Shown here piece after piece: positions 12,400-61,491 of a DNA stretch of 64,000 nucleotides (its first letter is position 1; each line of letters begins with the position of its first letter). The position numbers were made by a program, and so were the translations under genes. The notes beneath the pieces were generated by a model. That model did not search any database and was not told where the DNA came from. It was given only the letters and a program-made list of their open reading frames with translations. Source of the stretch: Strigamia acuminata (Eukaryota > Arthropoda > Chilopoda > Geophilomorpha > Linotaeniidae). The DNA is taken from positions 12,772,001 through 12,836,000 of the forward strand of contig OX442319.1 in NCBI GenBank assembly GCA_949358305.1, given 5' to 3'.

Positions 12400-13835
12400 A
12401 AATAGATCCAGAGTAAATCAGGAACTGAATACAAACTAAATACAAACTAAATTAGGAATTAAATACAAACTAAATTAGGAATTAAATACAAACTAAATAC
12501 AAACTAAATTAGGAAATAAATACAAACTAAATACAAACTAAATTAGAAACTAAATACAAACTAAATGCAAACTAAATACAAACTAAATGCAAACTAAATA
12601 CAAACTAAATGCAAACTAAATACCAACTAAATGCAAACTAAATCCAGAGTAAATCAGGAACTAAATCCAGAGTAAATCAGGAACTAAATCCAGAGTAAAT
12701 CAGGAACTAAATACAAACTAAATCAAATCAAAAACTAAATACAAATTTAAATCAAATCAGGAACTAAATCCAAACTAAATCTGGAACTAAATACAAATTT
12801 AAATCAAATCAGGAACTAAATACAAACTAAATCTGGAACTAAATACAAATTTAAATCAAATCAGGAACTAAATACAAACTTAAATCAAATCAGGAACTAA
12901 ATCCAGAGTAAATCTGGAACTAAATACAAACTAAATCAAATCAGGAACTAAATCCAAACTAAATCAAATCAGGAACTAAATCCAAACTAAATCAAACCAG
13001 GAACTAAATCCAAACTAAATCAAATCAGGAACTAAATCCAAACTAAATCAAATCAGGAACTAAATCCAAACTAAATCAAATCAGGAACTAAATTTAGTTT
13101 ACTCTGGATTAATCCAGAGTAAATCTGGAACTAAATCCAAACTAAATCAAATCAGGAACTAAATCCAAACTAAATCAAATCAGGAACTAAATCCAAACTA
13201 AATCAAATCAGGAACTAAATCCAAACTAAATCAAATCAGGAACTAAATCCAAACTAAATCAAATCAGGAACTAAATTTAGTTTACTCTGGATTAATCCAG
13301 AGTAAATCTAGAACTAAATCCAAACTAAATCAAATCAGGAACTAAATCCAAACTAAATCAAATCAGGAACTAAATCCAAACTAAATCAAATCAGGAACTA
13401 AATCCAAACTAAATCAAATCAAAAAATAAATCGAAACTAAATCAAATCAGGAACTAAATCCAAACTAAATCAAATCAGAAAATAAATCCAAACTAAATCA
13501 AATAAGGAACTAAATTCAAATTAAATTAAGAACTAAATCAAAACTAAATTAAAAACTACCAGTGTATTCATACAAAATTCAAACTAAATGTAATAGAAAC
13601 CAAGTGTATTCACCAAGTGTATTCACTAAATCCAAACTAAATCAAATCAAAAAATAAATCGAAACTAAATCAAATCAGGAACTAAATCCAAACTAAATCA
13701 AATCAGAAAATAAATCCAAACTAAATCAAATAAGGAACTAAATTCAAATTAAATTAAGAACTAAATCAAAACTAAATTAAAAACTACCAGTGTATTCATA
13801 CAAAATTCAAACTAAATGTAATAGAAACCAAATTC
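12400..13835. repeat. 1.4-kb minisatellite built from AAACTAAATC-type units
   Basis: Variants of GGAACTAAATCCAAACTAAATCAAATC are repeated throughout. There is higher-order structure: a 26-bp perfect palindrome (TTTACTCTGGATT and its complement) recurs at 13098 and 13281, 183 bp apart. A block beginning near 13401 is duplicated 228 bp downstream. Confidence 0.9.
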
Positions 13836-26735: not shown

Positions 26736-27605
26736 ATGTGTGTAGAGTTTTGGAAGAATTTTTGTATGGAAGTGTTAATTTTTGGGGGATTTTTGCAAGT
26801 TTCGTGCAGTTTTTGCTTGGAAATGTCAGGTTTTGTGGAATTTTTGCATGGAAAATGTGTGATTTTGTGTGATTTTTACATGAAAATGTGTTCTTTTGTG
26901 CAATTTTTGTATGAAAATGTATAATTTTGTGCAATTTTTGCATGAAAGTATCGAGTTTTGGACGAAAATGTCAATTTTTGTGCAACTTTTGCATGAAAAT
27001 GAATAATTTTGTGTAATTTTTGCATGAAAACGAATAATTTTGTCCAATTTTTGCATGAGAATGAATAATTTTGTGCAATTTTTGCATGAGAATGAATAAT
27101 TTTGTGCAATTTTTGCATGTAAGTATCGAGTTTTGGAAGAAAATGTCAATTTTTGTGCAACTTTTGCATGAAAATGAATAATTTTGTTTAATTTTTGTAT
27201 GAAAATGAATAATTTTGTCCAATTTTTGCATGAGAATGAATAATTTTGTGCAATTTTTGCATGAGAATGAATAATTTTGTGCAATTTTTGCATGTAAGTA
27301 TCGAGTTTTGGAAAAAAATGTCAATTTTTGTGCAATTTTTGCTGGAAAATGAATAATTTTGTGTAATTTTTGCATGAAAACGAATAATTTTGTGCAATTT
27401 TTGCATGAAAGTATCAAGTTTTGCGCAATTTTTAGACGAAAATGTCAATTTTTGTACAATTTTTGCATGGAAAAAAAAAAATTTTGTGCAAATTTTGCAT
27501 AAAAATGTATAAATTTGCGCAACTTTTGCATGAAAATAAATAATTTTGTGCAACTTTTGCATGAAAACGAATAATTTCGTGCAATTTTTGCATGAAAATA
27601 TCAAG
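26736..27605. repeat. TTTTGTGCAATTTTTGCATGAAAATGAATAA array with 175-bp higher-order unit
   Basis: A basic unit of about 30 bp is repeated roughly 28 times. The variant TATCGAGTTTTGGA occurs at 26949, 27124 and 27299, spaced exactly 175 bp, so a multi-unit block was itself amplified. Confidence 0.9.
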
Positions 27606-33735: not shown

Positions 33736-34315
33736 AAGTTCAATTTTTTTGTATTTCCAAACCATTTTTCGTATTTTTTTCGTATTTCCAGACCATTTTT
33801 CGTATTTTTTTCGTATTTCCACACCATTTTTTCGTATTTCCAGATTAATTTTCGTATTTCTAGACTATTTTTCGTATTTTTTTCGTATTTTTGTCGTATT
33901 TCCAGACTTTTTTCATATTTTTTTCGTATTTCCAGCTTAATTTTCGTATTTCTAGACTATTTTTCGTATTTTTTTCGTATTTTTGTCGTATTTCCAGACC
34001 ATTTTTCATATTTTTTTCGTATTTCTAGACTATTTTTCGTATTTTCTTCGTATTTTCTTCGTATTTCCAGACCATTTTTCGTATTTTTTCGTATTTCCAG
34101 ACCATTTTTCGTATTTCAAGACCTTTTTTCGTATTTTTATCGTATTTCCAGACCATTTTTCGTATTTTTTTCGTATTTTTTTCGTATTTCCAGACCATTT
34201 TTCATATTTTTTTAGTATTTCCAGAATAATTTTCGTATTTCCAGACCATTTTTGGTATTTTTTCGTATTTCCAGACCATTCTTCGTATTTTTTTCGTACT
34301 TCCAGACCAACTTTG
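33736..34315. repeat. CGTATTTCCAGACCATTTTT array
   Basis: About 25 imperfect copies of TTTCGTATTTCCAGACCATT with TTTTTTCGTATTT inserts. It gives long false ORFs on both strands. Confidence 0.9.
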
Positions 34316-40104: not shown

Positions 40105-43100
40105 GTAAGATGACGATGACGTGGTTTTGGTTTTTTTTTTTGGTTTTGTTTTTTTTTTTGGTTTTTTTTTTTGGTTTTTCAATTTATTCCGGCTGTTTAG
40201 GCGGGTTATTTGTGGGGAAAATTGACACCTTGATAGGAATTAGAGCATTTTCGTAGAAATTGAGTCATTTTTGAGGTTTTTTTTTTATTTTTTTTTAGGT
40301 TTGTTGGTGCAATTAATTTTTTGGTGCGGAAAGTTTTTGTTTTTGGAAAATTAAATTAAGTTTTGTGGGATTAATTAAATTAAGGTGTTTTTGTCGAAAT
40401 TGAGTAATTTCTGTGAGTTTGAATGGAATTTTCTTGAAATTTTTTATTTTTTTAAAATTTTTTTGAGGTTTTTTTTTAGTTTTCTTGAGTTTTTTTTAGT
40501 TTTCTTGAGTTTTTTAAAAGTTTTCTTAAGTTTTCTTGAGTTTTCTTGAGTTTTCTTGAGTTTTCTTGGTTTTCTTTTGGTTTTCTTTTGGTTTTCTTGA
40601 GTTTTTTAAAAGTTTTCTTGAGTTTTCTTGAATTTTCTTGAGTTTTCTTGGTTTTTTTTTTGGTTTTCTTGAGTTTTCTTGAGTTTTTTAAAAGTTTTCT
40701 TAAGTTTTCTTGAGTTTTCTTGAGTTTTCTTGGTTTTCTTTTGGTTTTCTTTTGGTTTTCTTGAGTTTTTTAAAAGTTTTCTTGAGTTTTTTAAAAGTTT
40801 TCTTGAGTTTTCTTGGTTTTCTTTTGGTTTTCTTGAGTTTTCTTGAGTTTTTAAAAACTTTTAAATTTTTTTTGATTTAATTTTTGATTTTTTTAGGTTC
40901 ATTAGTGCAAATAATTTTTTTGTGCGTAAAGTTTTCACTTTTAAAATCGAAAAATTTAATTTTATTGAATTAATTAAATTAAATAATTTTTTTTTTTATA
41001 ATTGAGGGTAGAAAAAAAAGTTGAGGTTAAGGTGAGGGATGGGGAAGGGCAGTGACTCTATTTTGGAGGAAAAAAATATTTACCAAGCAGAAAAAAAAGA
41101 AGAAAAAAAAAAAGTAAAGTGGGGCTCCTCACGCTCTAGTTTATCCCCTACTCCTCCTTTCTTGTTCATGTCCTACATTTCAATACAAAGATATTTGTTT
41201 CCATACTAACCCAATTTGATAATAATTTCTTTTTTTCTTCTAATTTTTTCTTTGCAGGCAGAAATCTCATTCGTTTGATTTCTTATTCTTTCTTTTCATG
41301 TTTTACTTTTTATTTTTTATTTTTTAATTTTTTAATTTTTTTTAATTTTTTTTAAAATTTTACTTTATTTTATTTTTTATTTTATTTTTATTTTTGTTTA
41401 AATTAGTCATTTTTTGGTCGTACATACAACAATTTATCCTCACTGTCTGAATGCAAGAATAACGGAAGGTGCATCATCAACAAGAAGAACCGGACATCCT
41501 GTAAAAGTTGCAGACTTCGGAAATGTCTGTTGGTCGGAATGTCCAAGAGCGGTGAGTTGACAACTTTTCCCACTTTTGACTTTTTGTTTACTTTAGTGCA
41601 AGAAAACAACCACAAAAAACACTAACAGGCTAAAGAAAACGCCATAAAACCTTATCATGATAAAAAAAAACATAACTAAAACCAGTAAAGAAAATAAAAA
41701 AAAACCAAATCATTACAAAACACATAAAACATCATCACTAAAAAACGACAAAAAACGCCAAAAACCAAAACCTAAAAAAAAAAACGAATAATCACAAAAA
41801 CCAAAACCCAAAAAAATCGAATAATCACAAAAACCAAAACCCAAAAAAATCGAATAATCACAAAAACCAAAACCCAAAAAAATCGAATAATCACAAAAAC
41901 CAAAACCCAAAAAACAGAATAATCACAAAAATCAAAAAAAATCAAAACCAGAAAAAATAATATGGATACAACAAAAAACACCAAAAAACAAAACAAAACA
42001 CCACAAAACAAAAACACCACAAAACCCAAATAATAAAAAAACTACAAAAAAACACAAAATATCAAAAAACCACAAACACCAAAAATCCAAAATAATAAAA
42101 ACTGCAAAAAACCAAAACACCAAAAAACACAAAACACCAAAAGACTCGCACCATCAAAAAATCCAAAATAATAAAAACTGCAAAAAACCAAAACACCAAA
42201 AATCACAAAACACCAAAAAAACACAAAAAACCAAATCCACCTCCCCCAAAAACAAAAACAAAAAAAAAAAAAAAAAAAAAACAACCAAATCAACCTCACC
42301 AAAAAACACCAAAAACAAAACCCACCTCCCCCCAAACCAAAAAAAAACAAAAAAACTAAACCAATTCCACACACAACTCGCTCGCCAAGCTCCAATTCAA
42401 CCCCCACCACCACCACCAAACCCATTCCAACCGTCACAATTAACAGTAGTCGCGCTCCAAGCAATTCCTGTTCACAACTCCCAAAATTAATCACCAAAAA
42501 AAAAAAATAAAAAAACTCAAACCCTCCAATTTTCTCACACACAGGCTCCAGATACGGGCGCCGCTCCAACTGGTTCAAAATCCACTGCCTCCTCCAGGAC
42601 CAAGCCGCCCTCAACGCCGCCTCTCACCACCCCCTCGACTCCCCGACCCTCAACGGCTACTCCGCCATGCCCACGACCAAACTCGGCTACGAGAGCGGCA
42701 GCAGCGACGACCACCGCTCTTGCCAGAACGACACCCCGTTCAAAGAGGAGCGCAGCGTCAGCCCCGACTCGCACGACTCCTCCTGCGACGAAATGCGCGC
42801 CACGAGCAACGGCACCGGCAGCCTCCTCTCCCCCTTCGGAGCGTCTCCTAGTCCGCCCGCCTACCTCCGGAGGGAGCCCGTGCCCACCATGAGCAGCGCC
42901 GGCGCCGTCAACGCCTCGTCGCCCGCCTTCCTCGTGCACCACCAGCTGCCCATCAGTCCCATCTCGCCGCTCTCGCCGCTCCACCCGCAGACCAAGTTCG
43001 TCTTCACCCCGTCGGGGGCGTGCTACGTGAACAGTGCCGGACTAGCGTTCCCGACAAACACCCCCAAGATGAGCCCTTACCACCCCCGCATACCCTCGTA

Positions 43101-49014: not shown

Positions 49015-49299
49015 TGCGGCGATCCGGGTTTTTACTTATTAAATTATATAAATTTAATAAGCAATCGTCGGTGAGATGCCGTACAGGACTTCTACTCTGT
49101 GGCCAAATGGTTGTCTAGGGGAATGATTTTACACAGAGTAAAGGAAAAATTAGATTGTTTTAATCGTTTTAAATACACCCGAATATAATGCGAAATAATA
49201 AGTGTAATGACTGGGTCGATCTGGTTTCTCTTCGTACTTGGACACTCACAGTTGACCGTTGGCTCCAAAATGGCGTCGATGGCGTCGTGTGAGCGCGGG

Positions 49300-49513
49300 A
49301 TTTTAGCGGAGTAAACTCGACGCTAAAATACTTTGCTAAAATATACTAAAAATCCTCGCGGAGCAAGCTCAACACGAGAATACGTCTTGCACACAGCGAT
49401 TTGATTATTACGGAGCAAGCTCGACGTAACAATCCGTCTTAACACAATTCGCCTTGTGGAGTTAAACTCGACACAAAGCCTTCAAACTAACAGAGTAAAC
49501 TCGATGTTAGTTT
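49300..49513 (-). promoter_or_regulatory. Array of five covarying hairpins in the LTR
   Basis: Hairpins lie at 49300-49329, 49352-49381, 49403-49434, 49451-49479 and 49484-49513. On the + strand each has a stem of 8-10 bp, then GAG, a loop TAAA/CAAG/TTAAA, CTC, a two-base bulge GA (AA once), then the complementary arm. The inner part is conserved and the stems differ completely (for example ATTTTAGCG and AAACTAACA), yet pairing is kept. The four imperfect pairs in these stems are all C-A on + and therefore G-U on the - strand, the element's sense strand. This supports an RNA structure. The function is unknown. Confidence 0.85.
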
Positions 49514-49925
49514 CACACACAGAAATGGCTTAAATTACTCGTAGTAATTCAAGCTAGAAAGTTGCTATTCCGTACAGTGGGTACAGACCAGCGATGAAAC
49601 TCAATTCGTCCAAGAATCACAGATCACACTTTGCAGTTTTGGCAGAAGTTTGACACGGTTGTGAACAGTTTGGAGGTGGAATCAAGAGTGCGGGAAGAGT
49701 GGGCCAAAACCGTTTGGCTCACTTCTAAATCTGCTCAGAAAAGCTGCGCAGATGACGAGTTGCATGAAGATCACACACGGCCGCCTTCGGGTCGTGTGCA
49801 ACAATCGAGCCGGGCACGCGCGAGGGGAAGGGATGCTCCGCCCAGGCACACGCCTAGCAGCATCATCAAAGCAATGCACGCTGCAGCGCGATTGGTTGAC
49901 GCTGTTGCTGGGCCAAAACTTGCTG

Positions 49926-49961
49926 CAAAACACAATATTATTTGGGTAATATTGTGTCTTG
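49926..49961 (-). promoter_or_regulatory. 15-bp stem-loop next to the LTR TATA-like box
   Basis: The + strand arms ACACAATATTA and TAATATTGTGT around TTTGGG pair perfectly and extend to 15 bp, with one C-A that is G-U on the - strand. A TATAAAA lies at 49968-49962 on the - strand, so the hairpin would overlap the transcription start or the very 5' end of the RNA. Confidence 0.7.
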
Positions 49962-50092
49962 TTTTATATTTTATTAATGTATGTTTTATTTCAATTTACA
50001 TTGAAACAAAACATATAAGTTTGTTGAATATGTTTATAAGACAATTTGGAAATATGGTGCGCACTCAAATAGGAATATTTGAGGTCACCACA

Positions 50093-50266: not shown

Positions 50267-52750
50267 TTATTTCGGCAACATGTCCGTCGAATGATCGTTT
50301 GGATCTTTGTGCTCGGTGACGGTGCACAAAGGTCGGCCGGCGTTTGGTCCTGACCGGAAGCCAGGGTTGATGTGGAGCCACACTTGCTTGATGCGGTCCA
50401 CACCATCCCTTCGTCCAAAACCCATCTCGAAGTACTCCTGCGGGTCTTGAGGCGTAATTCGAGCGAACACCAGGCGTTGATGCAGGATCCACGGCTGCTG
50501 TTCCTTGATGTGGTTTTCCAGCCACGCGAGGACTCGGTTGCATAAATCCTCGCTGTTCTGGAGAATCGTTTTCGTTGCGCTCGTTATGTAGCAAAAGGCG
50601 TATAATGAGCGCAAACGTTGATAGGCGGTGAGGTGGGTGGCCATACTCGATCCCCTATCTCTTGGCGGCGAATCCTTTGGAGGAGGCGGCGGTGGCGGCG
50701 ACTTCTTGCAGATCGAGAGGGATCTGGATCTGCGTAAAGCCGGGGTGCGCGTCTTTGGTCTGGCACCGCAGGCCACAGGCACGACGAACTCGCGATCGTC
50801 GCTGTCGAGCCATTCCATCGGAGACGAGATGTTGCAACTCGGTGCCTCGGTCGCACGGGAAACACTCGACGTTGCCGTGATGGCAGCGTGGAGTGGAGCT
50901 GCGGATGACGGTGGTGCGCCAGCGGGACGGGCGGTGGCTCGTTCTGCTGTGCGTCGCTGCTTCAGCGCAGCCCATTCCTGCCGTAGTCGAATGGCGGATC
51001 CAGCCGGAGTTTCGCCAGTCGCCTCGGCTTGTTGCGTCAATTCGGCGAGCATCGTTGGAGGATCGGGGCGAACTGACTCCCAATCGTCCAGCAAGGCTCG
51101 TGGAAGCCCTAGCGGCACGGTCCACAATCGAGTGGCGGCGGCCAGAGCAATCTGTGGGTCGGGAAAGACTCCTTGGAACAGGATTCGAAGAAGTCCCTCC
51201 GACAACTTCCTGTTCATCTTCTGCAGCGTCCGTTGCAGTTGCTTGTCGGACTTGCACGACGTAAGCTCTCGCGCAAGCCATTGCCATTCCTTCTCACCTT
51301 CGCGGATCTGAGCGAGTTGGTATTCGTCCAGATGCGCGAGGTACATCGTTTGGGCTGTCTCGGGAAACGATGAGAATCGCCTCCAGAGATCAGCGCACTC
51401 CTGTGCGGGAAATGGTTCGTGAGAGACGTATCCCTCAAAACGGATGACCGATGTCACTTGTGGCACGGGCACCGATGGATCTGGTCGCATGTCGCTGGTG
51501 ACTGGACGGCAAGCGAACGGCAAAGAGGTGTTAACGTCTCCCTGACCGGCTTGCAATGCGGCGATGCGTTGATCTTCCTTCGCTATCTCGTCCGACCAGT
51601 CAATCCGGCCGGAGGAGGAAGCGGTAAGCTGTGAAGCGTTGGATCGTTCTTCACGCGACGAGAGTGAACTCCTCGTGGAAGATTGACGCGATTGCACTCG
51701 AGGTCGGCTTCGGGATGTGGGTCTCGATACGGACTTCGAATGTCTTTTCGGCGGCGTCGGCTCGCGTCGGTGATGTGAGCGATGACGAGCCTTCTGGAGT
51801 GGAGGTAACCCTCCAATGGCGCCTTCCCCCGACGACTGTGTTGGGGAGGAGCGACGGCCACTGTAGGGCGACCTCGATGATCGTGACCTCGACGTGGAGC
51901 GCGGTGGCACCACGTGGATGGTGGAAGCGACCTGTACCCGGGGCTCAGGCTCTGGATACGGGTTCGGCACGAAATCTGCATGGAAACATCCGCCCATGGC
52001 TAGTTGATGCATCTCCGACTGGCATGTCGGCACCCAACGTTTCTTTCCGTCCGTTGTTACACGGAAAGATTCGTTGTAGAGGCGTACAACCTCGGCCTTG
52101 GTTTGATCCAAGCGTTGGAAAATGTCCTCCAAAATCTGTCGACGCTCCCACGCAGGAGCGTTGAAGTAACGGCGATGGTCTCGCGTTTCTTGTGCGATCA
52201 CTGTGAAGGCGAAGTCGAGCAACACGTTTCGCAGTGGTCCGAAGGTGTCGCGCTTCATTGCCCACTCGAGGGCGTCGCGATGACCGAATCCATCGATTAA
52301 ATAGGCGATCCGAAACTTCGTTCCCCATCGCTTGTTTAAGGCCTTGGAGAATTTGTGTCGGGCCGCCCAAAACGTCAGTCGTCCTTTCGACTTTATGATT
52401 TCTGGCGGCAATGCGTGTCGCCAGACACCAGGAGCGGTCGGAACATCGGGGTGTAGTTCGAGATGCGTCTCCCGAAGCTGGATAATCCGGTCGTGTCTCT
52501 GTGCACGAGTTTCGCCGTTTGGATCGGCGAATAGGCCTCCTCGAAGTCGGGGCTGAGACGGCGTGACTGGCAAACGGGCAGCAGCGTCGGCTAGAGCGGC
52601 TTGAGCTTCAGCGGACGCTTCGGCGGACTCTTCGGTGACATCCACGGATGCATTCGAAGTGTTTGCGGAACCAAGCAGCGTCGAATTTGTTTCTAATTCG
52701 AGGCTGTTGGCGCCGGCTTCGCTTCCTTCTTTCGGTTCCTCTCCTTCCAT
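50267..52750 (-). CDS. Third ORF of the complete element, 827 aa, RS-rich middle
   Basis: An intact ORF between pol and the 3' LTR. I do not recognise the family. Residues 1-60 are acidic and low-complexity. Residues 105-265 look globular (many Trp/Arg/Phe, for example KGRLTFWAARHKF). Residues 284-370 are rich in Ser-Arg dipeptides (STSRSRSSRSP, SRPTSRSRPRVQSRQSS), resembling the RS domains of splicing factors. Residues about 420-610 look helical, followed by a Pro-rich link (KKSPPPPPPPKDSPP) and a final globular part from about 715. No signal peptide or transmembrane segment is seen, so it is not a typical envelope. A role in RNA binding, splicing or export is inference. The start is the first ATG after a candidate 78-nt intron. 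An AATAAA for the - strand lies at 50203-50198. Confidence 0.85.
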   Translation of the reverse strand: MEGEEPKEGSEAGANSLELETNSTLLGSANTSNASVDVTEESAEASAEAQAALADAAARLPVTPSQPRLRGGLFADPNGETRAQRHDRIIQLRETHLELHPDVPTAPGVWRHALPPEIIKSKGRLTFWAARHKFSKALNKRWGTKFRIAYLIDGFGHRDALEWAMKRDTFGPLRNVLLDFAFTVIAQETRDHRRYFNAPAWERRQILEDIFQRLDQTKAEVVRLYNESFRVTTDGKKRWVPTCQSEMHQLAMGGCFHADFVPNPYPEPEPRVQVASTIHVVPPRSTSRSRSSRSPYSGRRSSPTQSSGEGAIGGLPPLQKARHRSHHRREPTPPKRHSKSVSRPTSRSRPRVQSRQSSTRSSLSSREERSNASQLTASSSGRIDWSDEIAKEDQRIAALQAGQGDVNTSLPFACRPVTSDMRPDPSVPVPQVTSVIRFEGYVSHEPFPAQECADLWRRFSSFPETAQTMYLAHLDEYQLAQIREGEKEWQWLARELTSCKSDKQLQRTLQKMNRKLSEGLLRILFQGVFPDPQIALAAATRLWTVPLGLPRALLDDWESVRPDPPTMLAELTQQAEATGETPAGSAIRLRQEWAALKQRRTAERATARPAGAPPSSAAPLHAAITATSSVSRATEAPSCNISSPMEWLDSDDREFVVPVACGARPKTRTPALRRSRSLSICKKSPPPPPPPKDSPPRDRGSSMATHLTAYQRLRSLYAFCYITSATKTILQNSEDLCNRVLAWLENHIKEQQPWILHQRLVFARITPQDPQEYFEMGFGRRDGVDRIKQVWLHINPGFRSGPNAGRPLCTVTEHKDPNDHSTDMLPK

Positions 52751-52960: not shown

Positions 52961-55900
52961 TTACGTTTGGGTAACGTCGCTGTTAGTGACGTCATCCAAT
53001 CTTACTGTTTGATTGGTTTGAGTATGGCTTGAGGAGTTGCTCCTTACGTCATACGGCTGATCCCTGGATCTCGAGGTTAGCGAGGGGAGAAGACACATGT
53101 TGTTTTTTCCTCTCGGTTTACGAGTCCGAAGATTATATCTCTTTGTCGGCGAGGGATTTATTGTATTTAAATCGCCGTCTTCATTGTCATCGGAGACTGA
53201 GTCAGATGAGTCTTTTATTTCAGATGTTTTTTGTTTCTTTTCTAAAAACACCTTTTTATTTATTTTTTTAGCAATTTCAAGCTTTTTGAAACTGTCACGA
53301 AGTTCAACGTCGTTATTCACGAGGTCTGACTCCATTTGTGGTTTGGATGAATTATCGACAGGTATTTTCTTTAATTCATCGTCATCTAACGTATTAATTA
53401 TATTTTCAGTCTTTTGACCGACTTCTTCGCCTTCTAACCATACTTCCTGGTCGAAACTCGGGAAATACGGAGTTAATTCAGACGAATGGACAGCTGGAAA
53501 TATTTCGTTATTTTCTAGCTTTCTCAATTCTACTGAACCTCCCTGTAATACTTTGGTTATTACATAAGGTCCTGTTCTTTTATCAGCGATGCCAGCTGCA
53601 ATGCCGCGGGCAGCGCTCGACAAAACATGAGAATCTCTCCAAACTAAATCGTTTAATTTAAAATTGGAGAACTTCTCACCTTCTTTTTTAAGATTAACTC
53701 GTCTACGCAAATCTAACACGTGCGACATCATGTGCTGATATGTTTCGGCGATAACGGCTTCTAATTTTTGCACGTATAAATGTGGGTTTTTTGGATCTAC
53801 GACCAAAATTCCTTCAGGTATTCTTGGATCCCAAGGTACTCTGAGTTCGCGAAAAAAGTTAAGAAATGCGGGAGAGAAGTCTCTTCCTCTCGTCACCGTA
53901 GTTCTCAAACTAAATGCAAATTCACGCAAATATTCGTCCCATTTGGAATGAACAGATGAATAAATTGCAACCAAATATTTGATGTCACGGTTAACCCTTT
54001 CAACCGGGTTAGCTTGTGGGTGATACGTTGAAGTTGGTGTTGGAACCATCTTGAACTTTTCACAAAATTTTTTAAAGACTTGGGCACGAAATTGCGGGCC
54101 GTTGTCAGAAATAATTTTACGAGGGAATCCCATGCTCATGGAAAGGTGATAAATGCAATTTGCTACTTTTCCAGCAGTGGGGTTACACATTGGATATAAT
54201 TCTGGCCAATGAGTTGCCACATCAAGTATGACTAAAATATGTGTGTTGTTTTTGCGCGTCCGAGGTTTTGGGCCGGTCAAATCAACACTTAGACAGTCAA
54301 ATGGGCTGTAAGGACCCATTTGCGCTGCTTCAATTTGTCCTTTCGTTCGAGGTTTGCAAGCTTGACAACGCTCACAATGTCGAATGAATCTCGTAATGTC
54401 CGATTTCATGCCTTTCCAGGTATAAATTCGGCGTGCTCGATAAAGAGTCCTTGCAATTCCTGGGTGGCCAGAAAGTGGGTGGCCATGCATCAGCCAAATA
54501 ATTTTATACTTCAATGTCTGAGGTACAAAAACTTTGAGTGCTCTCCCATCCTCCCCCAATTCATCAGACATTGTGGGATGAAATTGCATTAATAAGTCAT
54601 CTTCAATTAAGAAGGTGGTTGCGTGTTTTCTATATTGTTTCCTCTGGAGTCGCGTTGTGACGTCAGGCGGAAATTGATTACAATTTAAAAAATTACGCAT
54701 CAATTGGCAAACTTTATCTTCTTTTTGGGCCTTGATTATGTCTTCCCTTGTGGGAGGTTCACAATCAAGACGTTCTACAATTTTGGCGACAAATGCTTTT
54801 ATTAAAACATTTGACGAAGGAACTTGGAATTTCCTTGAAATTTGCGCTCTTATGACGTCATCTGATTCCTCAGAGGAGTCATAAATTTTAGTCCAATAGT
54901 TGACGAATTCATGATCTTCCTTTTCCTCTAATGTGGAGACAGGAAGCTCATGGAATTTTCCCATTTTCCATTTTCGTTGTGGTGATGGACAGTAAGATAA
55001 TAATTCGTCATTATCTCCATCATCTTCAGGATTTTCTGGTTTATCAATCGGTGATCTGGATAAAGCATCCGCTAAAACATTTAGTGGACCTTTAATATAT
55101 TGTATTTCGAAAGAGTAGCGCATTAGCTCCATTTGCCAACGCGCTAACCTTCCAGCAGGTTCGTCCAACTGCATCAACCATTTTAATGCTTGATGGTCAG
55201 TCCTTACTATGAATGTTGTAAATTCCAAATAATGTCGAAATTTACGTAATGCCCAGATTACCGCTAGGCACTCCAATTCTGTGGCGCTGTAATTTATCTC
55301 AGCAGGTTGTAAACTTCTGCTGGCATAAACACAAGGCACTTCGATATTTTGATCATCGATTTCTCTCATTTGCATAAGCGCGGCGCCTAGTCCTTTTCTG
55401 CTGGCGTCGGTATGCACAATAAATGGTTCTGTCAAATCAGGCATGGCCATTGTTTCTGCATTCGTTAAAGCATCTTTTATTTGATCAAAAGCTTCTTGAT
55501 GAATTTCTGACCAAATAAATTCCACATCCTTTTTGAGTAAAGGACGTAGAGGTTCTGTCATTACTGCCAGATTTTTAAGTAATCGGTGAAAAAAGTTCAC
55601 CATTCCCAAAAACCTTTGCAACTCTTTCAAATTTGAAGGAGCTGGCATTTCTTTAATGGCGGCGACTTTTTTAGGGTCGACACTAACTCCTTGAACACTT
55701 AACTTGTAACCAAGAAAAGTTAATTCTTTTCTGCCAAATTTCGATTTTTCTGGATGAACATGAAGATTTGCATTTTCAAGTTTACTCAGAATTTCTTCCA
55801 GATGAATCATGTGTTCTTCAAAATTTTTAGATATAATGATTATATCATCGAGGTATGCCCATGCAAATTTTCGATAGGCGTCCCCCAAAATTTTTTCTAT

Positions 55901-57436
55901 TAACTTCTGGAAAGTTGACGACGCATTTACGAGACCAAAGGGCATGACTCGAAATTGTAGTCGACCCAAAGGGCTCCAAAATGCAGTTTTAGCACGGTCG
56001 TTCGGATGAACCTCTATCTGCCAATAGCCTTTTGACAAATCTATTGTTGTGACCCATTCAAACCTTCCGAGTTCTCGCAAGATTTCCTCAATGCTGGGCA
56101 TTTGAGGAGGGTCGTATAATGTATGTGCATTGAGTGGTCTAAAATCAATGCAGAGTCTTGGATCACAATCCGGACGCATCACTAGAACTATTCGCATCCC
56201 ATAGTCTCCAGTGGCTTGTTCAACGTACCCATTATCCAACATATCTTGACAGATTTGACGGATAATTTCACGTTTCTGTGGATTTACGCTTTTAAACGGA
56301 ACTCTAATCGGAACTTTAGTGTCCAGTTTAATTTCATGCCTAACGAGGTGTGTTCTACCTGGTCGGCGTGATAAAATCTTTTCATGTTTCTTTAATACTT
56401 TTTCAAGCATTAAATTATTTTCCATTGACAAATTAGCATCGCTAACAAGTCTTTGTACTATATTTTCTTCATCGGCAACTTTAGCTTGACATGCAGTGGC
56501 GGAACCAGCTTTCATGTGATTTGCTTTAATAAAGTCGCGTTTCATGATTTCTTCGGGTGGATCAAGAAACTCTTGATAACGATCAAGAATCGCTTGAGGA
56601 ACAAAAGGTAAATCTTCTTTCAAAGACTTGACAAAATTCCAAGACATGGTCTTAGGATTTGGTTGAATATTGAGTCGATTCATGAAATCACATCCTAATA
56701 AAATAATAGGATATTTATTTCTTAAAATTATGAATGGATGACTTAACATCCCGTGTGTCCATGCAAAAGAAAGTAGGAGAGTCCCTTCAGGGACTACATC
56801 TTCTGAAGCAGTCGTAACTCTCACATCTGGTCCTATTGGTCGAATTTCATCTTCCAGTTTCAGCGAAATTACTACGGAGTAGGCCATGAAGCTTCGATTA
56901 GCTCCAGAGTCTAACATCCCTGTTATCATACCGTTTGCCGTCTGCAATCGAATCGTCGGCAAATCATTGCTGTTTGGTATGTCCGCGTACTTGCATTTAA
57001 AACGTCGCGGTGGCTTAATTTCTATTGGCGGATCCAATGGTAATTCGTCCAATAAATCATTAGTGACTAGCGTTGTAGCCATTAATTTTTCAATGCATTC
57101 ATCAAGACCAGGTAAATCAATTTTACCTGACCTTTCAACAATTTCAGGTGTGGGCCTAGCTTTTCCATCTAGTAAAGTAACAGCATCTTTTATTTTAGAT
57201 TCCCAATCAACTTTTATTTGTTGAACTTTTTCTTTAAAAAATTCTTCAGTGATGTTTTCATTTTGCAGCACAAGCCTTAAACTGGAAACATCAATTTTTG
57301 GAAATACTAAATTATTTTCTAATTCTAATTTAATCTGGGTATTTAAAAATTCATCTAAAATCTGAGATGGTGTTAGTTCATTTTCCGAGGCGGTAGGCGT
57401 CGCATCCACTAGACCGTCTGGATGCGCGCTTACAAG
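52961..57436 (-). CDS. pol: Retrotransposon Pol: protease, RT, RNase H, integrase
   Basis: The frame has no ATG near its start (the first codon of the long ORF at 57409 is GTG). It is open back to the slippery site at 57442-57436, so it is read by -1 frameshift from gag, about 1,491 codons. Numbered from that GTG codon: aspartic protease LDSGANRSF (catalytic D about 167); reverse transcriptase with LSKGYWQIEV, FRVMPFGLVNA and YLDD (about 519-522); RNase H starting VHTDASRKGLGA and ending NVLADALSR; integrase HHCC (HGHPLSGH, CERCQAC) near 974-1015; DDE core SVDLTG, SDNGPQF, YHPQANPVERVNR. A charged tail follows the C-terminal DNA-binding region. This is the Ty3/gypsy order. No stops interrupt it and all catalytic residues are present. 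Confidence 0.96.
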   Translation of the reverse strand, partial: LVSAHPDGLVDATPTASENELTPSQILDEFLNTQIKLELENNLVFPKIDVSSLRLVLQNENITEEFFKEKVQQIKVDWESKIKDAVTLLDGKARPTPEIVERSGKIDLPGLDECIEKLMATTLVTNDLLDELPLDPPIEIKPPRRFKCKYADIPNSNDLPTIRLQTANGMITGMLDSGANRSFMAYSVVISLKLEDEIRPIGPDVRVTTASEDVVPEGTLLLSFAWTHGMLSHPFIILRNKYPIILLGCDFMNRLNIQPNPKTMSWNFVKSLKEDLPFVPQAILDRYQEFLDPPEEIMKRDFIKANHMKAGSATACQAKVADEENIVQRLVSDANLSMENNLMLEKVLKKHEKILSRRPGRTHLVRHEIKLDTKVPIRVPFKSVNPQKREIIRQICQDMLDNGYVEQATGDYGMRIVLVMRPDCDPRLCIDFRPLNAHTLYDPPQMPSIEEILRELGRFEWVTTIDLSKGYWQIEVHPNDRAKTAFWSPLGRLQFRVMPFGLVNASSTFQKLIEKILGDAYRKFAWAYLDDIIIISKNFEEHMIHLEEILSKLENANLHVHPEKSKFGRKELTFLGYKLSVQGVSVDPKKVAAIKEMPAPSNLKELQRFLGMVNFFHRLLKNLAVMTEPLRPLLKKDVEFIWSEIHQEAFDQIKDALTNAETMAMPDLTEPFIVHTDASRKGLGAALMQMREIDDQNIEVPCVYASRSLQPAEINYSATELECLAVIWALRKFRHYLEFTTFIVRTDHQALKWLMQLDEPAGRLARWQMELMRYSFEIQYIKGPLNVLADALSRSPIDKPENPEDDGDNDELLSYCPSPQRKWKMGKFHELPVSTLEEKEDHEFVNYWTKIYDSSEESDDVIRAQISRKFQVPSSNVLIKAFVAKIVERLDCEPPTREDIIKAQKEDKVCQLMRNFLNCNQFPPDVTTRLQRKQYRKHATTFLIEDDLLMQFHPTMSDELGEDGRALKVFVPQTLKYKIIWLMHGHPLSGHPGIARTLYRARRIYTWKGMKSDITRFIRHCERCQACKPRTKGQIEAAQMGPYSPFDCLSVDLTGPKPRTRKNNTHILVILDVATHWPELYPMCNPTAGKVANCIYHLSMSMGFPRKIISDNGPQFRAQVFKKFCEKFKMVPTPTSTYHPQANPVERVNRDIKYLVAIYSSVHSKWDEYLREFAFSLRTTVTRGRDFSPAFLNFFRELRVPWDPRIPEGILVVDPKNPHLYVQKLEAVIAETYQHMMSHVLDLRRRVNLKKEGEKFSNFKLNDLVWRDSHVLSSAARGIAAGIADKRTGPYVITKVLQGGSVELRKLENNEIFPAVHSSELTPYFPSFDQEVWLEGEEVGQKTENIINTLDDDELKKIPVDNSSKPQMESDLVNNDVELRDSFKKLEIAKKINKKVFLEKKQKTSEIKDSSDSVSDDNEDGDLNTINPSPTKRYNLRTRKPRGKNNMCLLPSLTSRSRDQPYDVRSNSSSHTQTNQTVRLDDVTNSDVTQT

Positions 57437-57442
57437 TTTTTT
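57397..57442 (-). promoter_or_regulatory. -1 ribosomal frameshift signal between gag and pol
   Basis: On the - strand the last gag codons are CTA AAA AAC TTG TAA, containing A AAA AAC in the correct phase. After a 6-nt spacer a stem forms: GCGCGCATCC (57429-57420) with GGATGCG and CGC (57407-57401, 57399-57397) around one bulged A and a 12-nt loop. The -1 frame is open from the heptamer into pol. This is the textbook layout of a retroviral-type frameshift site. Confidence 0.9.
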
Positions 57443-60321
57443 AGAAGCTCGCCGATTGATTTCATCGATTTTTCGAACTCCTCAATGATCTTGTCTTTGC
57501 TCGATTTCCTATCAGGACATTCTTTAGCCCAATGTCCCAATTTTTTACAAATATTACACGGGTCAGTAGCAGGCGATTTCGCGACTTTTGGCGAAGGCGA
57601 ACTTGAACGTTTGGCTTCGTCCTTTTTAGGGGTCGGCGACTTCGATCTACTGAGCGCGTCTGTCTTTGGTGAACCAAAAGTAACGTTTTTAGGCGCCATC
57701 TTTGGTCCAAATTTTCGAGCTACTGCGTTATTACGGGCTAATAAAGCAGCTGCAGCCTCGCTTTCTGGTTCCGAGTCAGATTTCTCTGGTTCAGAAGCAG
57801 TTTCCATTTCAGTCACTTCGGCTAAGTGAGCTTTAGGGGTTGGATGTGGATTTTTCCCATCCGATCCCTTTTTAGATTCCTTAGCAGTCTCTGCCAAAAA
57901 ATCTCCTCGTTTTGGGGGTTGCAAAAGAGGGGTGTTAGCAAAACGTGTGTCTTTTGCTAATTCCTTTCTCCGTTGCTGTCGCTTAGCGTACGCAACTTTT
58001 TCATCAGCTGGTAGATAAGCTTTATAATTTTCGTCAATCCTTATTTGATTGGCTCGCATAAATTTGGCTAATTCAGCGAAACCACCCGGATAAGGTGCTC
58101 GTACTGAAAGTAGAACATTTTTTGAATAATCTGTCAATCCACGTCGGAATTGACGATCAATGGCTGCATCTCCCATTGTATAAGGGAGAGTGACCAATAA
58201 ATCCTCAGTCCTTCTTAAATAAGAGCGAAGACTTTCGCCTTTATTTTGAGAAAGATTATCCCACATTTGTAGTAAGTCTTCACTTGACTCCCCATATTCA
58301 GTCATGAATTCCTCTACAAAGTGATTCCAGTTTTGAAATTGTTTAGAATAAAACCATTTCTCAGCTCGATCTATAAGAGCTTTTGGTACTACTCTTTTCA
58401 AAGCAGTGTGACATGCAATGCCATTCAACCTTGAAATTCGTAACACTTCATCTAAAAGAGTGGATCCAGCTTCCCATTCTCCATCGAATAAAGCGGGTTT
58501 GATGTGATCCCATCTAATAGTTCTTTCATCAACTAGATCGTGAGTCCAGTTGTTGGCAGTATATTGTGCAATTTTTTGTCGTAATGCAATATCAGCATTA
58601 TCGGCAGTAGCGTCAGATCGATCGGAAGATCGACGATCAGCTAATAATCGATCAATTTCTTCAGCAGTGTAATAATGTGTATTACGCCGAGAAGAATGGC
58701 CTCGATGTCGACGTCGATGAGATCGATGTCGATTATCGCGTTCTTGTTGCGCATTCACATCAGAATCCGACCTTGAATCAGATTGTGAATTTGAAGGCGT
58801 GTTAAAATGTGGTGTTTCAGGTGGGTCGGGTGGGTCGCCGTCATCGTCGGGCGGTCGACGTCCACCTCCAGGTGGTCCATCTCCATGTCCATCTGGATTT
58901 CCTCCATCTGGTGGATTTCTTCTATACTGACCCCCACCTGGCGGGCTTTCATGTCCGTCCGGCGGTTCGCGTGTTGGATTGGTGTCTCGTCGACTTCTTT
59001 TTGACGAGTCTTGCTGTTGAGTCAGTGGTATCGTTCGAGTAACATGAATACCAGTTTCATGCCGTCTATTTCGATCGTCTACTATCCCCAACAGTCGGTC
59101 ACTGTTGTGAAAAATAGGGTTTCGATTACCAGGGAGCGGATTGCGATCAGCTCTCCGTTCCTCAGAATCTGAAGGACGTTTTCTTTTTGAGCGATGGCGA
59201 CGACGCGAACGTTGGTCGTCATCACTCGATAATCCAGATTGGCTACTTAACTCTGAAACAACAGAAATTGTTATTGTTTCGGGAGTCAAAATAGGGACAG
59301 TTGGCGCAGCCATTTCTGGTTGCACCAATTGGTCAGTATAATTTCTTGCTTGCAAACGGTCTTTCATTTCTGCAAGCTCTTCTTGAGCGCGTAACAAATC
59401 AGCTCGGAGAATTTCATTCTCGTTTATTTGATTTTGCGATTCTGGTTGTAATCGCTTAGCAGGGCCGCTAGACTTGACTTGTCCGCTCGTACTGGGTTGA
59501 TCCAGCGAGTGGAAAATCTCGTCTTCACGCTTAGCTATTTTGCTTTCGCGAGTACGCTGTGTTTTAGCACGTGTGTCTAATTCAGCAGCATATCTCACTA
59601 GTTGATTATGATTGCGTTGGTAGTGGTCTGCCAAATCAATCAATTCTTTATTTTTCTGCTCCAGCTTACTTTTGGTAAGCTCGAGCTGTCTTCGCGCCTC
59701 TTGGTGTGAGCGAATTGAAAGTTCATTTCTAGTATTCATTTTAGAAAGATCTTCCACTTCACCTTTTAATCTGTATTCTCTAGCTTTTTGGGCTAGAAAT
59801 TCCTCATTTTGTCGATTGAGTTCCATGTGTTGAAGCTCAACCTCCGCTTTTTGTTGTTGAAGCTCAGCTTCTTTTCGTTCCATTTCAAATTGTAAATTTG
59901 AAACGGCTCGGTCAGTGTGAAGTCGTATCATGGCGCGATGAATCTCTTCGACCGTCATGTCGTCCGTTATTTGGGCGCCATCTTGGCGTGCTTGATTTCT
60001 CAAAGCATCCAACATGGTCATGCGAGGAGGTGATTCGTGAGACGATTCACTTTCCATTTCACGTAACGTATTTTCCACTTCCTCCAGTGGAAGTGGCGGG
60101 AGTTCTTGGTCGTTAGAACTCGCACTTGAAGCGCTTAATGCTCTAGCAACTTCATTTTCAGCATCCTTAAGTTGTTTCGGATCTGGAACTGGTGTTATTT
60201 CTTCAGAAATAATTTTCTCCATAAGCATTTCAGGCTCGAGAGCCGGCAAAACCGTCGCTGCTCGTTTCTGAGTGCTTGGTCGACCTCTTTGTCGTTTTAC
60301 AATTTGCATTGGCGTCGCCAT
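57430..60321 (-). CDS. gag: Retrotransposon Gag, 963 aa
   Basis: Structural protein of the particle, starting at ATG 60321, about 74 nt after the primer site. In order: an N-terminal region with a long coiled coil (about 128-270, rich in Glu/Gln/Lys), a disordered Ser/Arg- and Pro/Gly/Asp-rich middle (about 360-570), a capsid-like helical domain (about 580-770: WDNLSQNKGESLRSYLRRTE, then RQFRRGLTDY) matching retrotransposon gag proteins, and a CCHC zinc knuckle CNICKKLGHWAKEC at 922-935 that should bind the genomic RNA. It is about twice as long as most Ty3/gypsy Gags because of the N-terminal coiled coil and linker. It stops at TAA 57432-57430, just after the slippery heptamer. Confidence 0.95.
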   Translation of the reverse strand: MATPMQIVKRQRGRPSTQKRAATVLPALEPEMLMEKIISEEITPVPDPKQLKDAENEVARALSASSASSNDQELPPLPLEEVENTLREMESESSHESPPRMTMLDALRNQARQDGAQITDDMTVEEIHRAMIRLHTDRAVSNLQFEMERKEAELQQQKAEVELQHMELNRQNEEFLAQKAREYRLKGEVEDLSKMNTRNELSIRSHQEARRQLELTKSKLEQKNKELIDLADHYQRNHNQLVRYAAELDTRAKTQRTRESKIAKREDEIFHSLDQPSTSGQVKSSGPAKRLQPESQNQINENEILRADLLRAQEELAEMKDRLQARNYTDQLVQPEMAAPTVPILTPETITISVVSELSSQSGLSSDDDQRSRRRHRSKRKRPSDSEERRADRNPLPGNRNPIFHNSDRLLGIVDDRNRRHETGIHVTRTIPLTQQQDSSKRSRRDTNPTREPPDGHESPPGGGQYRRNPPDGGNPDGHGDGPPGGGRRPPDDDGDPPDPPETPHFNTPSNSQSDSRSDSDVNAQQERDNRHRSHRRRHRGHSSRRNTHYYTAEEIDRLLADRRSSDRSDATADNADIALRQKIAQYTANNWTHDLVDERTIRWDHIKPALFDGEWEAGSTLLDEVLRISRLNGIACHTALKRVVPKALIDRAEKWFYSKQFQNWNHFVEEFMTEYGESSEDLLQMWDNLSQNKGESLRSYLRRTEDLLVTLPYTMGDAAIDRQFRRGLTDYSKNVLLSVRAPYPGGFAELAKFMRANQIRIDENYKAYLPADEKVAYAKRQQRRKELAKDTRFANTPLLQPPKRGDFLAETAKESKKGSDGKNPHPTPKAHLAEVTEMETASEPEKSDSEPESEAAAALLARNNAVARKFGPKMAPKNVTFGSPKTDALSRSKSPTPKKDEAKRSSSPSPKVAKSPATDPCNICKKLGHWAKECPDRKSSKDKIIEEFEKSMKSIGELLKNL

Positions 60322-60394
60322 TTTGTCAAATTGAAAAAGAACAATGGAAATAAAGGATTTTTTCGCAAAAATCGGATTTTAATAATCAAAACAA

Positions 60395-60411
60395 TCCCGG
60401 ACGGGCCCCCA
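60395..60411 (-). promoter_or_regulatory. Primer-binding site, tRNA-Pro type
   Basis: On the - strand TGGGGGCCCGTCCGGGA starts 2 nt after the 5' LTR. It differs at one base from the classical tRNA-Pro primer site (T at position 8), so a proline tRNA with that acceptor-stem base would match fully. Confidence 0.8.
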
Positions 60412-60413
60412 AG

Positions 60414-61491
60414 TGCGGCGATCCGGGTTTTTACTTATTAAATTATATAAATTTAATAAGCAATCGTCGGTGAGATGCCGTACAGGACTTCTACTCTGTG
60501 GCCAAATGGTTGTCTAGGGGAATGATTTTACACAGAGTAAAGGAAAAATTAGATTGTTTTAATCGTTTTAAATACACCCGAATATAATGCGAAATAATAA
60601 GTGTAATGACTGGGTCGATCTGGTTTCTCTTCGTACTTGGACACTCACAGTTGACCGTTGGCTCCAAAATGGCGTCGATGGCGTCGTGTGAGCGCGGGAT
60701 TTTAGCGGAGTAAACTCGACGCTAAAATACTTTGCTAAAATATACTAAAAATCCTCGCGGAGCAAGCTCAACACGAGAATACGTCTTGCACACAGCGATT
60801 TGATTATTACGGAGCAAGCTCGACGTAACAATCCGTCTTAACACAATTCGCCTTGTGGAGTTAAACTCGACACAAAGCCTTCAAACTAACAGAGTAAACT
60901 CGATGTTAGTTTCACACACAGAAATGGCTTAAATTACTCGTAGTAATTCAAGCTAGAAAGTTGCTATTCCGTACAGTGGGTACAGACCAGCGATGAAACT
61001 CAATTCGTCCAAGAATCACAGATCACACTTTGCAGTTTTGGCAGAAGTTTGACACGGTTGTGAACAGTTTGGAGGTGGAATCAAGAGTGCGGGAAGAGTG
61101 GGCCAAAACCGTTTGGCTCACTTCTAAATCTGCTCAGAAAAGCTGCGCAGATGACGAGTTGCATGAAGATCACACACGGCCGCCTTCGGGTCGTGTGCAA
61201 CAATCGAGCCGGGCACGCGCGAGGGGAAGGGATGCTCCGCCCAGGCACACGCCTAGCAGCATCATCAAAGCAATGCACGCTGCAGCGCGATTGGTTGACG
61301 CTGTTGCTGGGCCAAAACTTGCTGCAAAACACAATATTATTTGGGTAATATTGTGTCTTGTTTTATATTTTATTAATGTATGTTTTATTTCAATTTACAT
61401 TGAAACAAAACATATAAGTTTGTTGAATATGTTTATAAGACAATTTGGAAATATGGTGCGCACTCAAATAGGAATATTTGAGGTCACCACA
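60414..61491 (-). repeat. 5' LTR of the complete element, 1,078 bp
   Basis: Identical to 49015-50092. Here it serves as promoter and first part of the leader. The hairpin array lies at 60699-60912 and the TATA-like box near 61367-61361, both on the - strand, so the array would be transcribed in the 5' leader. Confidence 0.95.
60699..60912 (-). promoter_or_regulatory. Hairpin array, 5' LTR copy
   Basis: Exact copy of 49300-49513, shifted by 11,399. In the 5' LTR it lies between the TATA-like box and the primer site. Confidence 0.85.

Follow-up and report, generated by a model that had tools for sequence, protein, structure and literature searches.

A tandem array of bulged hairpins with a fixed, TAR-resembling core in the LTRs of Ty3/Gypsy retrotransposons of Strigamia acuminata

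The window, by which we mean the entire 64,000-nucleotide stretch of Strigamia acuminata DNA analysed here, contains an LTR retrotransposon of the Ty3/Gypsy type, whose sense strand is the minus strand of the window and which comprises two LTRs, Gag and Pol ORFs and a third ORF. Sequence comparison together with inspection of the ends defined a 3' LTR of 1078 bases with the form TG...CA (49015..50092, minus strand), and a pairwise match identified the 5' LTR (60414..61491, minus strand), which agrees with it at 1078 of 1078 bases; AGTA, the target duplication, lies at the outer side of both. The minus strand between them encodes Gag (57430..60321, 963 aa), which carries a CCHC knuckle, Pol (52961..57409, 1482 aa), with RT, RNase H and integrase in that order, and the third ORF (ORF3; 50267..52750, 827 aa), which has an arginine/serine-rich middle. 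Arginine-rich stretches are present in Gag and ORF3, the two candidate ligands considered below, and absent in Pol. Adjoining the 5' LTR is the probable primer-binding stretch CTTGGGGGCCCGTCCGGGAT (60394..60413, minus strand), which may be of the tRNA-Pro type; a near-identical stretch follows the LTR at another locus (L080). The presence of gag, the domain order in pol, the TG...CA ends, the target duplication and the primer-binding stretch place the element in Ty3/Gypsy, and it is a young LTR retrotransposon. On searching the genome (237.5 Mb, 157 contigs) with the 214-base hairpin array described below, the top score over the full 214 bases was obtained at 25 places, inclusive of the two in the window, among 40 scored of 257 candidates. 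This implies that the window family multiplied very recently.

ORF3 gave no protein match at E<=0.001 (7992 candidates scored), no Pfam family even at E<=10 and no PDB chain at E<=1, and its single-sequence structure model (mean pLDDT 39.5, pTM 0.24) was uninformative and was not used. Nevertheless, pieces of ORF3 are recognizable in two related elements (L090 and L093, see below), which indicates that it belongs to the clade as a gene and did not arise as an ORF by chance. Outside the element the window also contains long tandem arrays rich in A/T, whose units measure about 10 to 60 bases (12414-13833, 26831-27599, 33743-34309 and 40429-40862).

An initial annotation of this DNA had described five hairpins in the 3' LTR, and these are indeed found on the minus strand, with an identical set in the 5' LTR (60699..60912, minus strand). 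Read in the sense orientation, hairpin 1 (49484..49513, LTR 580-609) combines a 9-bp lower stem with a UC bulge and the top GAG-UUUA-CUC, and shows the strongest covariation; hairpin 2 (49451..49479, LTR 614-642) has an 8-bp stem with one G-U pair, a UC bulge and GAG-UUUAA-CUC; hairpin 3 (49403..49434, LTR 659-690) a 10-bp stem with one G-U pair, a UC bulge and GAG-CUUG-CUC; hairpin 4 (49352..49381, LTR 712-741) a 9-bp stem with two G-U pairs, a UU bulge and GAG-CUUG-CUC; and hairpin 5 (49300..49329, LTR 764-793), whose stem is exchanged in relatives for one with two compensated pairs, a 9-bp stem, a UC bulge and GAG-UUUA-CUC. As had been stated, the lower stems (8-10 bp) are all unlike one another and each pairs with itself, and every one of the four imperfect stem pairs in the window copy reads G-U in the sense strand. 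The two-nucleotide 5' bulge and the GAG-loop-CUC top, with loops of 4 or 5 bases in the window, also stand, but the bulge is not fixed as UC: it is U followed by a pyrimidine, with UC in four of the window hairpins and UU in one. Similarly, the count of five per LTR holds for the window copy, but some relatives have seven (10 of 55 loci: L014-L020, L022, L023 and L035).

A search of the whole window for the core form, defined as GAG-N3-6-CTC with a two-nucleotide 5' bulge and at least 7 paired bases below it, recovered 10 instances on the minus strand, all within the two LTRs and none elsewhere in the window, as against 0 on the plus strand. Dinucleotide shuffling of the LTR produced 2 core-form hairpins in total over 5000 shuffles, compared with 5 in the real LTR. 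When any 3-bp top was allowed above the two-nucleotide 5' bulge there was no minus-strand excess (65 on the minus strand, 10 of them in the LTRs, versus 71 on the plus strand), which argues that the core, not the general shape, is special. In folds of the window LTR all five hairpins appear in both the minimum-energy and the centroid structures of the sense strand, whereas the antisense fold keeps at most two; likewise, the alignment fold of 35 distinct LTRs holds five hairpins in sense (energy -246.6) and three in antisense (-219.1). As shuffling of the folded array yields z-scores that are alike for the two strands (-3.35 sense, -3.40 antisense), fold energy alone names no strand. An Rfam scan of the LTR (E<=10) returned 12 matches, all under the gathering score, with neither TAR nor 7SK among them.

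The array has a structured neighbour in the form of an 11-bp hairpin without the core (49528..49554, minus strand, LTR 539-565), which shows compensated variants in diverged copies, suggesting that the structured RNA region may exceed the five hairpins. For one of the two further hairpins of the LTR that had earlier been credited with the same bias, it bears that remark out, with 38 G-U and 0 A-C cells in sense. The sense alignment fold holds several hairpins in this part of the LTR (window 49528-49961), for example, besides the one at 539-565, those at LTR 132-167, 340-364 and 501-529. Another hairpin, of the form GAGTG...CCCACTC (window LTR 368-396), recurs in L036, L066 and L080, at about 560-760 of each; the families that share it are LTR families with no overall sequence match. 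The most diverged part of the LTR is 841-930 (window 49163-49252), which separates the array from the poly(A) signal and where identity is 66-73% against about 90% or more elsewhere, with the exception of 1021-1050 and 571-600.

The probable poly(A) signal in question is an ATTAAA (49159..49164, minus strand, LTR 929-934), which is preserved in 36 of 36 aligned copies. Since it is downstream of the array, the latter should precede the poly(A) site and is thus likely to lie in the 3' end of full transcripts. A weak candidate for a promoter element is TATAAA (49963..49968, minus strand, LTR 125-130), found in 32 of the 36 copies about 400 bases or more upstream of the array. If it were the promoter, the array would fall in R and hence occur at both RNA ends.

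To obtain related copies we used the pattern TCGAGYTTRCTC plus the following G, which matches the genome 546 times, whereas its reversed control matches 15 times (each variant at a given place being counted). From 100 places listed, 40 pattern loci were fetched, and another 20 arrays were collected by similarity to a diverged copy without any core filter; matches over the full-length LTR had identities of 76-100%. We also fetched 15 near copies that were not identical, of which 7 were aligned, the rest being partner LTRs or near-duplicates. The resulting 36-row alignment took in 28 of the 40 pattern loci; left out were one locus that matches the core pattern without forming a hairpin (L025), six of other families (L029, L030, L033, L036, L042, L048), a near-duplicate (L041) and four partial loci (L049, L050, L058, L064). 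Together with the 20 similarity-fetched arrays these rows make 56, or, after removal of duplicates, 52 distinct arrays with 260 hairpins (the window, 6 near copies, 25 pattern loci and 20 similarity loci). A wider pattern was rejected, having 100 matches against 417 for its reversed control, and the loci fetched with it (L068-L078, L084) were without the core hairpin and were set aside.

Across the 260 hairpins the core follows the consensus R-U-Y-GAG-YUUR-CUC. A purine precedes the bulge in all 260 (A 73, G 187), the first bulge base is T in 259 and C in 1, and the second is a pyrimidine in 254 (C 153, T 101, A 4, G 2). Above the bulge, pair 1 is G-C in 253, pair 2 A-T in 259 and pair 3 G-C in 254, and the 780 core pairs include no Watson-Crick exchange, neither A-U for G-C nor C-G. 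The loop-closing pair, on the other hand, is T-A in 107, C-G in 152 and T-G in 1. If the top stem served structure only, it should show the exchanges seen in the closing pair and the lower stem. Because one hairpin per pattern locus was chosen by its core, the 20 unfiltered arrays are the fairer sample, and their 100 hairpins have the purine in 100, the U in 100, pair 1 in 95, pair 2 in 99 and pair 3 in 97. In terms of changes per column, the second bulge base is the fastest-changing class (6.60), followed by linkers (2.59), stems (1.21) and the loop-closing pair (0.70), with the core at the lower extreme (pair 1 0.60, pair 3 0.40, first bulge base 0.20, pair 2 0.10). The YUUR loop and its closing pair are also well kept, and position -2 is always a pyrimidine.

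These rates bear on one explanation of the array, namely that the hairpins are alike through recent tandem duplication or through chance. Their spacings (52, 52 and 80) and the duplications of two hairpins at a time show that the units did arise by duplication. However, duplication or chance alone is refuted by the shuffle counts given above and by the 0.10-0.60 changes per column at the core pairs as against 2.59 in linkers, and we assign it a negligible probability.

Compensation in related copies had been named in advance as a test of the hairpins, and the stems do change in matching pairs. Over the 52 arrays, same-branch double changes number 16 at 64 pairs (one of 65 was left out, its column being mostly gap), compared with a null mean of 2.22 and a maximum of 8 in 2000 simulations on a tree built from the hairpin array itself; 14 of the 16 lead from one Watson-Crick pair to another and 2 to non-pairs. 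For example, hairpin 5 occurs as ATTTTAGCG/CGCTAAAAT and as ATTTTGGCA/TGCCAAAAT, hairpin 1 swaps C-G with T-A and A-T with G-C, and the loop-closing pair swaps T-A with C-G. Part of the covariation in hairpin 1 may be exchange between neighbouring hairpins, given that both forms are present in arrays of seven. R-scape-like tests of column pairs gave weaker results than the branch test: of the 9 doubly variable structure pairs in the 36-row set 3 reached E<0.05, as did 2 non-structure pairs, and in the 52-row set 1 of 16 such structure pairs did so and no other of 7260 pairs. Stem mutation without compensation, which the initial annotation held would count against its reading, is confined to scattered decay, in that 27 of 91 one-sided changes lead to A-C or another non-pair.

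The one-sided changes also distinguish the strands. Among the pair cells of the 52 arrays 3103 are Watson-Crick, 194 G-U, 19 A-C and 12 other, and the one-sided changes end in G-U in 46 cases, in Watson-Crick pairs in 18, in A-C in 16 and in other combinations in 11. The 46:16 ratio of G-U to A-C has p = 1.8e-4 if the changes are taken as independent; if each distinct pair type is counted once, the ratio becomes 28:13 (p = 0.03), and 12:5 (p = 0.14) in the 36-row set. This excess is relevant to the proposal that the hairpins are DNA-level palindromes, that is to say protein sites, cruciforms or products of hairpin-templated quasi-palindrome correction, without selection on RNA. Templated correction does make double changes in one step, just as observed on single branches. 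However, such DNA-level processes should be strand-symmetric and predict equality of G-U and A-C, correction should erase the asymmetric bulge, yet the bulge is kept, and a DNA site would keep its sequence and not its pairing. We accordingly consider a DNA-level origin highly improbable. The paired stem changes and the G-U bias instead support the original suggestion of selection on the sense RNA, and selection on the hairpins at the RNA level is nearly demonstrated.

The same core occurs on unrelated stems in other LTR families of this genome. LTRs of the L029 type and L036 have no BLAST match to the window LTR, and the matches between L029 and the window are confined to A/T-rich simple sequence. 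Among nine stretches flanking such LTRs two match window proteins: L093, which has an L029-type LTR on either side, contains Gag pieces with 33-36% and an ORF3 piece with 29% identity to those of the window element, with a basic stretch at the matching place in its Gag, and L090 has an ORF3 piece with 30% identity. Furthermore, L080, which is of the L029 type, shares with the window family both the primer-binding stretch and the stretch after the poly(A) signal; L080, L081 and L036 have AATAAA at the matching place, followed by the shared CCCTAGACA. In the L029 type the central hairpin has the core in 21 of 28 cases and retains a long lower stem without GAG/CUC in 7 of 28 (core in 13 and loss of GAG/CUC in 7 of the 20 similarity-fetched ones). 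The two hairpins flanking it carry a core of related form but differ in the bulge (50 were counted, with 7 distinct stems), and there is no G-U among their 56 stem cells. Two cores on another stem type are present in each of L036, L066 and L067, and of these either one folds or both do; in L065 both cores are damaged; and L083 has two, one with the loop CGUG, which is outside all search patterns. At L079 (C1:46130350-46132350) a window-family LTR end with at least 3 core hairpins precedes an L029-type LTR by a few hundred bases; this locus is a nest or a fusion of two element families.

The initial annotation had likened the hairpins to bulged TAR-type elements as an analogy only; their fixed and free positions turn out to agree with published TAR-Tat requirements. 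TAR is described as having an essential U23, which forms a triple with A27-U38, any base at position 24, a deletable U25, a UU bulge in HIV-2, and flanking G-C pairs of which the reversal of either abolishes Tat binding (PMC11885821). The hairpins resemble HIV-1 and HIV-2 TAR in a bulge with U first and a free second base and in their location in an LTR, HIV-2 TAR also in the two-base length of the bulge, and TAR generally in the purine before the bulge and the order G-C, A-U, G-C above it. At the level of sequence the elements of the triple are present (bulge U 259/260, A-U 259/260), as are the non-exchangeable flanking G-C pairs (253 and 254 of 260, with no C-G). The arginine sandwich, defined in PMC6189040 by a pyrimidine cap from the bulge that takes part in a triple and by a base nucleotide preceding the bulge, finds its counterparts in the U (259/260), the A-U pair (259/260) and the purine (260/260). 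The same source gives the bulge of 7SK stem-loop 1 as U40U41 with U40:A43-U66, which is similar in its UU, in the triple of the first U with an A-U pair and in the single pair between that pair and the bulge; 7SK differs in being a host RNA, one stem of which carries four bulges, whereas the element repeats one motif per hairpin.

Differences from TAR are that the element hairpins form five to seven tandem copies, have a pyrimidine at the place of G21, nearly restrict the second bulge base to pyrimidines where TAR tolerates any base, and belong to an element with no known Tat, in a host that is not a mammal. As their loops, YUUR or close variants of 4-5 bases, lack the cyclin T1-binding hexaloop, we do not file them as TAR, though on this evidence they would appear to work like it. 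In other systems, PMC10309623 mentions Rev multimerisation on structured RNA and describes Cer1 CERV of C. elegans as an extra protein of a Gypsy/Ty3 element required for export of its genomic RNA. The element likewise has an extra Gypsy-type protein, but the architecture of the RRE is unlike its array. Excerpts of PMC3601003 link conservation in long R regions of retroviruses and retrotransposons to stem-loops and describe no repeated array with a fixed core. Our search of the literature, itself incomplete and drawing partly on such excerpts, found no description of a tandem array of this kind; its absence from print is not thereby established.

We propose, with about even confidence, that the array is a row of TAR-type RNA sites in the sense transcript, selected as RNA and bound by an arginine-rich protein of the element; whereas the hairpins, their strand bias, the compensation, the fixed core and its presence in further LTR families are observed, the base triple, the contact with arginine, the identity of the ligand and its role are inferred. 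The second pair above the bulge would be joined by the first bulge U in a U.A-U triple, the two flanking G-C pairs would offer guanines for arginines to grip with the purine as a platform below, and the lower stem, needing only to pair, would be free to drift as long as changes were compensated. The five to seven copies might then be bound together by an arginine-rich segment, most probably one in Gag or ORF3 of the element itself, cooperative binding being favoured by the tandem arrangement. The bound array could mark the RNA for packaging or nuclear export, either of which seems likelier than Tat-like control of transcription, since the array appears to be far from any candidate start and Cer1 CERV provides a precedent for export. 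Counting against recognition by arginines are the 7 of 28 L029-type central hairpins without GAG/CUC, the flanking hairpins with a different bulge, the near-absence of purines at the second bulge base and the pyrimidine in place of G21. It should also be noted that arginine-rich stretches are common in Gag and in SR-like proteins.

The identity of the reader admits two further proposals. The sense-RNA hairpins might bind a host protein, such as the normal user of 7SK-type arginine-sandwich RNA, with the element mimicking a host RNA. That the core equals the motif described for 7SK (PMC6189040) and is present in more than one LTR family of this host would suit this, but the families that share the core also share Gag and ORF3 relatives where matches were seen (2 of 9 stretches), so that an element-encoded ligand fits equally, and we regard a host reader as rather unlikely. 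Less probable again is that the RNA structure is recognised by its shape or loop without an arginine-rich segment, through a nucleocapsid zinc knuckle, a translation factor or RNA dimerisation. The conserved YUUR loop and closing pair, together with the CCHC knuckle of Gag, are consistent with this, but conservation is strictest in the bulge and in the pairs above it. We also rejected as unlikely dimerisation through UCGA, UU bulges being common (101/260).

Recognition of bulged hairpins by arginines is known from lentiviral TAR and from host 7SK (PMC6189040, PMC11885821). Taken together with the other LTR families, our preferred interpretation, namely arginine-mediated recognition by a protein of the element, raises the possibility, to which we give slightly less than an even chance, that a Ty3/Gypsy clade evolved, independently of lentiviruses, a TAR-type hairpin and multiplied it to five to seven copies, read by an element-encoded arginine-rich protein, in several LTR families with completely different stems. 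If true, this would represent convergence on one RNA-recognition solution outside lentiviruses and a retrotransposon counterpart of Tat/TAR or Rev/RRE. It would further provide dozens of naturally occurring variants in a simple experimental system, and would point to a function for the otherwise uncharacterised third ORF.
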